This document shows positions 12,057 through 24,443 of a DNA stretch of 37,443 bases, piece after piece. A program made the position numbers and the translations under genes. The stretch comes from Mailhella sp. GTDB lineage: Bacteria; Desulfobacterota; Desulfovibrionia; Desulfovibrionales; Desulfovibrionaceae. Under the pieces are notes generated by a model, which saw only the letters and a program-made list of their open reading frames with translations, did no database searches and was not told the origin of the DNA. Numbering within the stretch: position 1 is the first letter of the stretch; every line of letters begins with the position of its first letter. The stretch covers positions 1 through 37,443 of the forward strand of contig JARHYD010000151.1 of NCBI GenBank assembly GCA_029258655.1. Direction: 5' to 3'.

Positions 12057-12141
12057 TGGTGCCCAGGGGGAGACTCGAACTCCCACGCCTCGCAGCGCTA
12101 CCACCTCAAAGTAGTGTGTCTACCAATTCCACCACCTGGGC
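12057..12141 (-). tRNA. tRNA-Leu(GAG), distal copy
   Basis: The 85-nt gene folds as a class II tRNA: acceptor GCCCAGG pairs with CCTGGGC, the encoded CCA is present, the D-arm region is GTGGAATTGGTAGACAC, and the T-loop is GTTCGAGTC. The anticodon stem CTACT/GGTAG encloses TTGAGGT, which gives anticodon GAG, reading CUC and CUU. A long variable arm follows. It is identical over its whole length to the copy at 12172-12256. The pair shares a promoter and a terminator, with a 30-bp spacer. Confidence 0.95.
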
Positions 12142-12171
12142 AAATTTAATTATATACCAAAAATTTTTTTG

Positions 12172-12256
12172 TGGTGCCCAGGGGGAGACTCGAACTCCCA
12201 CGCCTCGCAGCGCTACCACCTCAAAGTAGTGTGTCTACCAATTCCACCACCTGGGC
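12172..12256 (-). tRNA. tRNA-Leu(GAG), promoter-proximal copy
   Basis: Same sequence and fold as the copy at 12057-12141: class II tRNA, anticodon GAG in loop TTGAGGT, CCA encoded. This copy is transcribed first, from the promoter at 12266-12294. Confidence 0.95.
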
Positions 12257-21056: not shown

Positions 21057-21611
21057 TTATAAAATATCTTTCCAAGGATTATTAATAGCTAATTCATATA
21101 ATTCTTGATTAGAACTACCCACAAAAGGTTTTTCTACTGTTTTTAATTCTACCACAAAACGTCCTGTAATAACTAGATCTGCGTACATTAAAATTTCTTG
21201 CCGAATTTTTTTCTTTTGTTCAGTAACAGCAAGTAATTCATCTACTTCATGTCCTGTATAAATAGTAATATGTCGTCCTTTTGCTTTACAAACTTTTGCT
21301 AATACACAAAGAGCTTGCTCTTGCAAAAATGGTTCGCCACCAGAAAAAGTAACACCACTTGCGAGTTTACTTTCATATATTTCTTGATAAACTTCTAAGG
21401 CTGTTACAGTTTTTCCTGCTTTTTTATCATGGGTTGTTTTATTATGACACCCTTTACAATGAAAATCACAGCCTTGAAAAAAAACAACAGTTCGCACTCC
21501 TGGACCATCAACAACACTTTCATGCTGATACCCTGCAAGCTGAACTGTTGTATTTTTTAGAAGTTGTATTTCATCAGTAGATAAATCAAATCCTAATGTC
21601 TGCATGAGCAT
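21057..21611 (-). CDS. nrdG: Anaerobic ribonucleotide reductase activating enzyme (radical SAM)
   Basis: The 184-residue radical SAM protein has the cluster motif C48-x3-C52-x2-C55 (GCDFHCKGCHN), preceded by DGPGVRTVVFFQGC. The SAM-binding TFSGGEPFLQ and YTGHEVDEL follow. NrdG uses a 4Fe-4S cluster and SAM to place the stable glycyl radical on the class III reductase under anaerobic conditions. Two start codons are close: ATG 21611 and ATG 21605, both overlapping the end of the small glycyl-radical gene, so translation is likely coupled. The N-terminal extension of about 25 residues before AGYQHES is longer than in E. coli. It is the last gene of the nrdD operon. Confidence 0.94.
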   Translation of the reverse strand: MLMQTLGFDLSTDEIQLLKNTTVQLAGYQHESVVDGPGVRTVVFFQGCDFHCKGCHNKTTHDKKAGKTVTALEVYQEIYESKLASGVTFSGGEPFLQEQALCVLAKVCKAKGRHITIYTGHEVDELLAVTEQKKKIRQEILMYADLVITGRFVVELKTVEKPFVGSSNQELYELAINNPWKDIL

Positions 21612-21769
21612 TCTTTATCAGTAAAGTGCTTAACACGATCAGCTTCTTCTGCACGTTTTGCATCATTCCATCTATCCATATCACCAACTAAATATCCAGT
21701 AATACGACGTATTCTTGAAAAAGAAACTCCTTCACCAATACGTTCTTCAGTAGCAATTTGTTCTTGCAT
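21593..21769 (-). CDS. Separate glycyl-radical subunit of the class III ribonucleotide reductase, 58 aa
   Basis: The 58-residue protein contains SRIRRITGYLVGDMDRWNDA followed by KRAEEADRVKH, which is the glycyl-radical motif normally found at the very C-terminus of NrdD. G25 is the expected radical site. The C-terminal ECSCRH adds two cysteines. It has its own strong AGGAG ribosome site, 6 nt before ATG 21769, and an in-frame TAA (21772-21770) immediately before the ATG. It lies in a different frame from nrdD. It is therefore translated separately rather than as an extension. It sits 13 bp after nrdD and overlaps nrdG. I infer that it docks onto NrdD after activation by NrdG. Confidence 0.85.
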   Translation of the reverse strand: MQEQIATEERIGEGVSFSRIRRITGYLVGDMDRWNDAKRAEEADRVKHFTDKECSCRH

Positions 21770-21782
21770 TATTTATTCTCCT

Positions 21783-24137
21783 TTATTTATTAGGTAATGT
21801 GTCCATTTCTTCTTGCAAATTTACATGAACACGAGCATATTTTGGATCAGGACTATACCCTTTTACCTTTTTTAATACAGATAAAGGCAAACCTTCTCCA
21901 TCATGTCGTCCACAACGAGGACAAGTATCTCCTATAATTCCCACATAACCACAAACAGGGTCACGATCAACAGGGTGATTAATGGAAAAATATCCCATAT
22001 TTGAATCTGCCATAGCACTTACAATAGTTTCAAAAGCATCAATATTTGCAGATAAATCTTCTGCAACCTCAATATAACTAATTGCACCTGCTAAGCAGTA
22101 TTGATGATATTGTGATTCAATTTGAATTTTATCCCAAGCACGAATAGGATAAAAAACAGGAACATGAAAAGAATTAGTAAAATAATCTCGATCAGTTATA
22201 CCTTTAAGAATCCCAAATCTACCTCGAGTAATACGCAACAAACGACCAGAGCAACCTTCAGCTGGACTTGCAATTAAGCTAAAATTCAAACCAGTTTTTT
22301 TTGTTTGTTCTTTACAACGATCGTAAAAATATTTAATAATACTTACTCCAATTTCATTAAGAACCTTATCTTCACCATGATGTTTTCCAAATAAAGCCAC
22401 TAAACATTCTGCTAATCCTATAAAACCAATAGATAATGTTCCATGTTTAATAACTTCACGAATTTCATCATCTGGATGTAATTTTTCACTATCTATATGA
22501 ATACCTTGTCCCATAAGAAAAGGATAATTTTTTGCTTTTCTTTTAGCTTGAATTTCAAATCGATCAAGTAATTGTTCAAAAACAAGACTAATATAATGAT
22601 CTATAATTTTCATAAAAGCTTGAAAAAGATCTTGTCCTGTTACATTAGGATTTTCTTCCTTTGTTAGCAAAGCAAGATAAGGCAAATTAACAGTAGTAAA
22701 AGATAAATTACCTCGTCCTGGTGTAATAGAACGAGAAGGATCATAATCATTTCCTAACACACGTGTACGGCAACCCATAACAGCACAAATTGTTTCTGGA
22801 CGTCCTTCTTTATAATATGGCTCATTAAACGTAGAATCTAAATTATTAAAATTAGGAAAAAGACGTTTTGCAGAACAACGACAAGCTAAACGGAATAAAT
22901 CATAATTAGGATCACCTTTTCTATTAACCCCTTTTTTCATAGTAAAAATAGAAATAGGGAAAATAGGTGTTTCACCATTACCAAGCCCTGCCTCTGTGGC
23001 AAGAAAAAGATTTTTTGTTACCATTCTACCTTCTTCACTTGTATCCATTCCTGTATTTAAAGAAGAAAATGGAACTTGACTACCAGCACGAGAATTAAGA
23101 GTGCAAAGATTGTGTACAAGAGCTTCCATTGCTTGATATGTATCTTTATCCGTACGGTTATAAGCAAATTCTAAAGCTTTTTCTGCATCAAGGGTATAAC
23201 CAAATTTTTGTGTTTTTTCTTGTAATAATGCGATAAGATATGCTCTTACTTCATTATTCATAAGATGTGTATGTGTTTTATTATATTCTTTTAATGCTGC
23301 TTTTACTTCATCAATCAAAGCTGTATCACCAATCATTGCCTCTAAATAAAGTAAAATATTTTTAATATAAGAGCGTGCAACATAAGGAGCAAGACTAAAA
23401 TCTAATGTTGGCACAGATTGCCCACCAAACATCTCATTTTGATTACTTTGTATAATGATACAAACAAGTGTTGCTGCTGCTCCAATAGTACTTGGAGAAC
23501 GCAAAGCCCCATGCCCTGTATTAAAACCAGAATTTAATAATTTACCAACATCAATTTGCATACAATTTATTGTTAATGCATAAAATTCCATGTCGTGAAT
23601 ATGAATAATACCAGATTCGTATGCTTGTACGTGGTCAGGCTTAATTAAAAACTTTTTATTAAAATCTTTTGCAATTTCACTACCATATTTTAACATAGTT
23701 CCCATAGTGGAATTGCCGTCAATATTAGCATTTTCGCGTTTAATCTCACAATTTTTACTATCTGAAAAAGTCAATTCTTTCATTAACTTCATCAAAGCAC
23801 CAGAAGCATCACGCACATCACTTCTTTGTTTTCTATAAAGAATATACGCCTTAGCTGTTCTTGCGTGTTGATTTTCTATTAAGACTTTTTCCACAGTATC
23901 TTGTACATCTTCAATAGCTACTTCATAATATTCCATTCCATTTTCTGTTTTTACAAGACTTCCAATACCGTTTTCAAGTATATAAGAACAAACTAAACTT
24001 GCTAAATATTTTGCTCTCTCTGTATCTATTCCGCCAACAGACTTTGCAGCCTTAAAAATAGCTGATTGAATTTTTTCTTCATTATAAACTTCGCTTTTTC
24101 CATCGCGTTTAATAATGTTTGAAATACATTTTTGCAT
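21783..24137 (-). CDS. nrdD: Anaerobic (class III) ribonucleotide reductase large subunit, lacking the C-terminal glycyl-radical segment
   Basis: The 784-residue protein has an N-terminal ATP-cone (about 1-95, IIKRDGKSEVYNEEKI). The class III barrel carries HIHDMEFYALTINCMQ (C192), RAGSQVPFSSLNTG, the presumed thiyl cysteine region RCSAKRLFPNF (C419/C421), TVNLPYLA and GFIGLAE. A C-terminal zinc knuckle CGYVGIIGDTCPRCG (C729, C739, C742) shows only three of the usual four cysteines. The chain ends LPNK, about 40 residues past the knuckle. It has no RVxGY glycine motif, which is encoded next door (21593-21769). The enzyme makes deoxyribonucleotides without B12 or oxygen. The leader is a cobalamin riboswitch. 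The start is ATG 24137 behind GAGAGATAAAA. Confidence 0.95.
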   Translation of the reverse strand: MQKCISNIIKRDGKSEVYNEEKIQSAIFKAAKSVGGIDTERAKYLASLVCSYILENGIGSLVKTENGMEYYEVAIEDVQDTVEKVLIENQHARTAKAYILYRKQRSDVRDASGALMKLMKELTFSDSKNCEIKRENANIDGNSTMGTMLKYGSEIAKDFNKKFLIKPDHVQAYESGIIHIHDMEFYALTINCMQIDVGKLLNSGFNTGHGALRSPSTIGAAATLVCIIIQSNQNEMFGGQSVPTLDFSLAPYVARSYIKNILLYLEAMIGDTALIDEVKAALKEYNKTHTHLMNNEVRAYLIALLQEKTQKFGYTLDAEKALEFAYNRTDKDTYQAMEALVHNLCTLNSRAGSQVPFSSLNTGMDTSEEGRMVTKNLFLATEAGLGNGETPIFPISIFTMKKGVNRKGDPNYDLFRLACRCSAKRLFPNFNNLDSTFNEPYYKEGRPETICAVMGCRTRVLGNDYDPSRSITPGRGNLSFTTVNLPYLALLTKEENPNVTGQDLFQAFMKIIDHYISLVFEQLLDRFEIQAKRKAKNYPFLMGQGIHIDSEKLHPDDEIREVIKHGTLSIGFIGLAECLVALFGKHHGEDKVLNEIGVSIIKYFYDRCKEQTKKTGLNFSLIASPAEGCSGRLLRITRGRFGILKGITDRDYFTNSFHVPVFYPIRAWDKIQIESQYHQYCLAGAISYIEVAEDLSANIDAFETIVSAMADSNMGYFSINHPVDRDPVCGYVGIIGDTCPRCGRHDGEGLPLSVLKKVKGYSPDPKYARVHVNLQEEMDTLPNK

Positions 24138-24173: not shown

Positions 24174-24207
24174 AAATAAAAAAACCTGCATATTAAAAGC
24201 ATACAGG
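24174..24207 (-). terminator. Riboswitch-controlled terminator before nrdD
   Basis: On the minus strand CCTGTATG (24207-24200) pairs with TATGCAGG (24192-24185), using two G-U pairs, followed by seven T residues. Its 5' arm, extended as TTTTCCTGTATG (24211-24200), can instead pair with CATACAGGGAAA at 24256-24245 as a 12-bp antiterminator. Confidence 0.85.
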
Positions 24208-24408
24208 AAAAGATGATCGCGAAAAATCTCTGTTTCCCGAAAGATTTCCCTGTATGTGGACAATGAGATCGGTCTTCTGGCTCCTCTTCATCTATTTTTT
24301 ACACCTTCCCGAAATTATCAGTGGTTTTTGTAAAAAATATCCAAGTTACAGCGGCGGGTCCCGCTACGGATTTACACCGTATTCCCTGAAACAATAGTTT
24401 CATCTCAT
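24174..24408 (-). promoter_or_regulatory. Cobalamin (B12) riboswitch controlling nrdD
   Basis: The aptamer runs from 24408 to 24263 and is closed by P1 (ATGAGAT with ATCTCAT). It contains the B12-box core in order: GGGAATACGGTGTAAATCC, GCGGGACCCGCCGCTGTAA, CCACTG, CGGGAAGG and GAGGAGCCAGAAGACC. The expression platform has P13 (AAATCT 24247-24242 with AGATTT 24229-24224). Its loop CGGG (24239-24236) complements CCCG in loop L5 (24358-24355), the kissing pair known for this class. P13 shares its first three bases with the antiterminator, so ligand-stabilised P13 should free the terminator. Expected effect: B12 present, nrdD off. Confidence 0.95.
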
Positions 24409-24415
24409 GCGTATT

Positions 24416-24443
24416 TTTATAGCCTAGTATGGTAAAAAGTCAA
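24416..24443 (-). promoter_or_regulatory. Promoter of the riboswitch-nrdD operon
   Basis: On the minus strand TTGACT (24443-24438) and TATAAA (24421-24416) are 16 bp apart. The predicted start near 24409 coincides with the first base of the riboswitch P1 helix. Confidence 0.7.

Follow-up and report, generated by a model that had tools for sequence, protein, structure and literature searches.

The window, by which we mean the whole 37,443-nucleotide stretch of DNA analyzed here, carries the genes for a class III (anaerobic) ribonucleotide reductase on its minus strand, preceded by a cobalamin riboswitch (Table 1). Read from 24443 to 24174 on that strand, the leader consists of a promoter, a cobalamin aptamer, the P13 hairpin, an antiterminator and an intrinsic terminator with a U7 tract, and nrdD begins 40 nt beyond the end of this tract, placing the riboswitch directly upstream of a B12-independent isozyme. 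The NrdD protein of 784 aa contains an ATP cone and an NRDD domain and ends short of the glycyl-radical segment, which is encoded as a separate small ORF between nrdD and nrdG (window 21593-21785). Most of the Desulfovibrionaceae loci that we examined (L006-L052) are split in this way, as is L044 (labelled Christensenella), while the segment is fused to NrdD in L023, L043 and L045-L048. We considered a chance frameshift as the origin of the split and rejected it on account of this recurrence; a literature search turned up no description of an NrdD glycyl-radical segment encoded on its own. The NrdG match to TIGR02491 (124.0 bits) is slightly below the cutoff of 126.1, and nrdG overlaps the 58-aa ORF by 19 nt. 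We did not find a convincing terminator between nrdD, the glycyl-radical ORF and nrdG. A long perfect inverted repeat 3' of nrdG (about 21014-20971, read by eye) is likely the operon terminator. Because the ORFs overlap or lie close together and share one putative downstream terminator, all three are likely repressed together by B12.

Table 1. Leader elements and genes of the nrdD operon, with their positions in the window
Feature	Positions	Strand	Details
Sigma-70-type promoter, TTGACT/16-nt spacer/TATAAA	24416..24443	-	-35 at 24443-24438, -10 at 24421-24416
Cobalamin riboswitch aptamer, RF00174	24250..24422	-	90.4 bits, E 2.7e-21, full model 1-189
L5 CCCG, kissing-loop half	24355..24358	-	CCCG also in L5 of the leaders compared
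L13 CGGG, kissing-loop half	24236..24239	-	CGGG in other genera
P13 hairpin, up to 11 pairs	24221..24250	-	24250-24240 with 24231-24221; first to form in prefix folds, -9.1 kcal/mol
Antiterminator, 12 bp	24200..24256	-	24256-24245 with 24211-24200; ~9 pairs at the corresponding position in relatives from the genus
Intrinsic terminator	24178..24207	-	Hairpin 24207-24185, U7 24184-24178; 5' arm within the antiterminator 3' arm
nrdD, class III (anaerobic) ribonucleotide reductase without glycyl-radical tail	21783..24137	-	PF13597 E 1.4e-165; ATP-cone E 1.3e-15; PRK07111 926 bits
58-aa ORF with the NrdD glycyl-radical segment (RRITGYLVGDMDRWNDAKRAEEADRVKH)	21593..21769	-	Matches C-terminal ends of PRK14704, PRK07111 and TIGR02487
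nrdG, radical-SAM activase	21057..21611	-	Fer4_12 and Radical_SAM; TIGR02491 best

An earlier note on this DNA, made from the sequence alone, had proposed a complete cobalamin riboswitch with all core motifs lying just behind a -35/-10 promoter, and both parts of this proposal were confirmed. The aptamer scored above the curated gathering score of RF00174 (31.5), and the same match was recovered in an Rfam search of the whole genome. The transcription start is predicted on the 5' side of P1, at about 24408, which explains why the first bases of the Rfam match (from 24422) overlap the -10 region. Within the genus this promoter is conserved: five leaders share TTTGACTTTT and TATnAAAA without variation. 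A consensus promoter scan of the sequence did not list it; the scanner requires T as the last base of the -10 element. We did not accept this miss as an argument against the promoter, given that its -10 is TATAAA and the site is invariant within the genus. P1, which the earlier note had listed, pairs AUGAGAU (24408-24402) with AUCUCAU (24269-24263), and the CCCG/CGGG match that it had pointed out between L5 and L13 is present and kept in relatives. This kissing loop, identified by base matching only, would link the aptamer to the expression platform. In four same-genus relatives L5 is CCCCG and L13 is CGGUGG or CGGCGG, so that pairing needs a one-base bulge; the match is kept unbulged in the leaders of other genera examined.

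The 12-bp antiterminator and the terminator with seven T residues described in the earlier note were both recovered. It also had P13 and the antiterminator sharing bases, which holds, although an 11-pair P13 overlaps the antiterminator by six bases rather than three. The antiterminator and the terminator are mutually exclusive, since CCUGUAU is common to both. In prefix folds, P13 formed first and gave way to the antiterminator as the 3' arm of the latter emerged (-22.0 kcal/mol). The predicted energy of this ON fold compares with -17.0 kcal/mol for the OFF fold containing P13 and the terminator, and antitermination is therefore favored without ligand. The energy of the 85-nt platform (-22.0 kcal/mol) was well below the mean of its dinucleotide shuffles (-13.4, sd 2.8, z -3.1), with 6 of 1,000 shuffles as low; a 12-pair helix of any kind was present in 21 of 1,000. 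The comparative evidence is stronger support for the platform structures than these shuffle statistics. Four other genomes of the genus have the promoter, P1, the antiterminator and the terminator as well, with the promoter hexamers, P1 and the antiterminator 5' arm invariant or nearly so. In each of the five leaders from the genus, antiterminator and terminator contend for one shared arm. Within the genus, the terminator has AUGCAGG, AUACAGG or AUACGGG as its 3' arm, each of which pairs with CCUGUAU. Terminator and antiterminator were located in each sequence by motif, because the MAFFT alignment A1 shifts the terminator of this leader by a few columns. In the leaders of G039 and G113, little energy separates the computed ON fold from the OFF fold, and the terminator is already present in the free fold.

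Judged by NrdD relatives at 81-82% identity, which are in MAGs labelled Desulfovibrio, Mailhella and Desulfovibrionaceae, the genome belongs to the Desulfovibrionaceae. The earlier note's expectation that it should also encode a class II reductase and B12 uptake or synthesis was borne out. NrdJ is present at G000:C136 (PRK08665 1192 bits, TIGR02504 720 bits) and is the sole PF02867 reductase of the genome, with no class I reductase found in the PF02867 search. The corrin-ring and cobamide assembly genes cbiK, cbiL, cbiC, cbiD and cobS are also present, and the second of the two cobalamin riboswitches in the genome precedes cbiK. Elsewhere in the window, two tandem tRNA-Leu(GAG) genes with Rfam alignments identical in sequence occupy 12057-12256. 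A dispersed repeat with a core of ~40 bases occurs in many places in the genomes of the genus (for example L105:9217-9416 in G039, and more than 10 places in G000), and no copy of it was found in the window.

The arrangement at nrdD is not new, having been predicted in 2004 for nrdDG of Desulfovibrio vulgaris (PMC545781). Rodionov et al. 2004 placed B12-elements upstream of nrdDG in both Desulfuromonas and D. vulgaris, reported NrdJ in all genomes studied, proposed B12 repression of nrdDG and described a B12 element on cbiK-cbiL in Desulfovibrio (PMC545781). As far as that account goes, the locus studied here resembles the one in D. vulgaris in its aptamer family, operon, bacterial family, the NrdJ in the genome, the second element on cbiK and its proposed logic; it differs in belonging to another, AT-rich genus and in that the terminator and antiterminator are traced in detail and compared across relatives (PMC545781). 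The B12 riboswitch of the class Ia nrdABS operon of Streptomyces coelicolor has been studied experimentally (Borovok et al. 2006, as cited in PMC4991794). It likewise controls a reductase that does not need B12 and that coexists with NrdJ in the cell (PMC4991794), but that enzyme is class Ia and oxygen dependent, whereas a class III enzyme would be controlled here.

We consider it very likely that the leader is a class-I type cobalamin riboswitch that responds to plentiful adenosylcobalamin by terminating transcription prematurely, which turns the nrdD-glycyl-radical ORF-nrdG operon OFF. We infer the binding, the identity of the ligand, the change in termination and the physiology of this riboswitch. 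Transcription would begin at about 24408, with the aptamer synthesized before P13. With B12 bound, L13 CGGG would kiss L5 CCCG, holding P13 in place and making the antiterminator 5' arm (24256-24245) unusable. The CCUGUAU arm would then be free for the terminator, and RNA polymerase would halt at U7. Ligand and kissing loop together would thus hold P13 and tip the balance toward the terminator. In the absence of B12, the antiterminator strand would displace P13 and capture CCUGUAU, and nrdD would be transcribed. The folding, which favors antitermination without ligand, fits an OFF switch. A cell with scarce B12 would depend on the B12-independent NrdD, and one with B12 on NrdJ.

The distribution of the riboswitch agrees with this role. 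All five nrdD-bearing genomes of the genus carry the riboswitch ahead of this gene, as do 20 of the 41 genomes in the family whose nrdD locus was usable. This table was compiled by hand from coordinates; it leaves out G049 and G099, where contig ends interrupt nrdD, as well as G067, which is without nrdD. NrdJ was found in 19 of the 20 genomes with an nrdD riboswitch versus 9 of the 21 that have none there (p 0.0005 by Fisher's test; permutation stratified by genus, p 0.006), the p values serving as guides only, since the genomes share ancestry and many of them are incomplete. These counts, together with the publication on D. vulgaris nrdDG (PMC545781), support the earlier note in its reading of nrdD as a B12-independent isozyme under B12 control. 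The nine genomes that have NrdJ and nrdD with no riboswitch at nrdD indicate that the coupling is not obligatory. In G008 (L099, G008:C1, about 2613593-2613797), which was counted among genomes without the nrdD riboswitch, a cobalamin riboswitch stands ahead of another nrdD-like gene far from the nrdD orthologue, and not ahead of the orthologue itself. G067, of the same genus and 96% complete, has NrdJ and three cobalamin riboswitches, and no nrdD was found in it. The same-genus genome G086 has the riboswitch at nrdD, and NrdJ, CbiC and CobS were undetected. We do not take it as a refutation of the link to NrdJ, as the entire 9-kb nrdJ neighborhood kept by its genus relatives is absent as a block, probably through an assembly gap. 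Genera g42, g13, g7 and g20 each contain genomes with both riboswitch and NrdJ beside genomes with neither. On balance, we favor the view that the riboswitch has been gained or lost together with NrdJ within one bacterial family, over short evolutionary times.

In Gram-negative bacteria, many cobalamin riboswitches work at the level of translation, and the aptamer could bind B12 and mainly block initiation of nrdD translation by occluding the ribosome site, the terminator being incidental. The leaders of G012 and G053 (L010 and L013), which are without a T run of at least 4 in the part examined, are consistent with such a mode. In the leader studied here, however, the antiterminator and the terminator with U7 are in competition base by base, the changes seen within the genus preserve the pairing of the terminator, and 30 nt separate the U tract from the nrdD ribosome site downstream (about 24148), all of which make translational control very improbable. 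We give almost no weight to the possibility of a degenerate riboswitch retained without a present regulatory role. G086 could be read in this way, but a gap in its assembly is the simpler explanation, and five species with ~81% NrdD identity all retain the core motifs, promoter and platform intact.

The OFF switch might also work with another corrinoid as its main ligand, such as hydroxocobalamin, methylcobalamin or a pseudocobamide. Sequence is an unreliable guide to the ligand choice of cobalamin riboswitches, and gut Desulfovibrionaceae may produce other cobamides. The RF00174 match is nevertheless full length, with peripheral arms that we take to be typical of adenosylcobalamin-binding class I aptamers, and adenosylcobalamin is the cofactor of NrdJ, which leads us to regard a different main ligand as unlikely.

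In summary, our analysis supports termination control of the nrdD operon by adenosylcobalamin. The general knowledge of riboswitches is unchanged by this example. The family-wide link between riboswitch and NrdJ supports the 2004 prediction, which had been drawn from few genomes, and the pattern of riboswitch and NrdJ presence provides a ready set of natural gain-and-loss cases. The riboswitch probably halts the synthesis of the B12-independent reductase when B12 can serve the B12-dependent NrdJ, and would represent a clean, traceable case, in gut relatives of sulfate reducers, of enzyme choice set by the cofactor supply of one of the enzymes.
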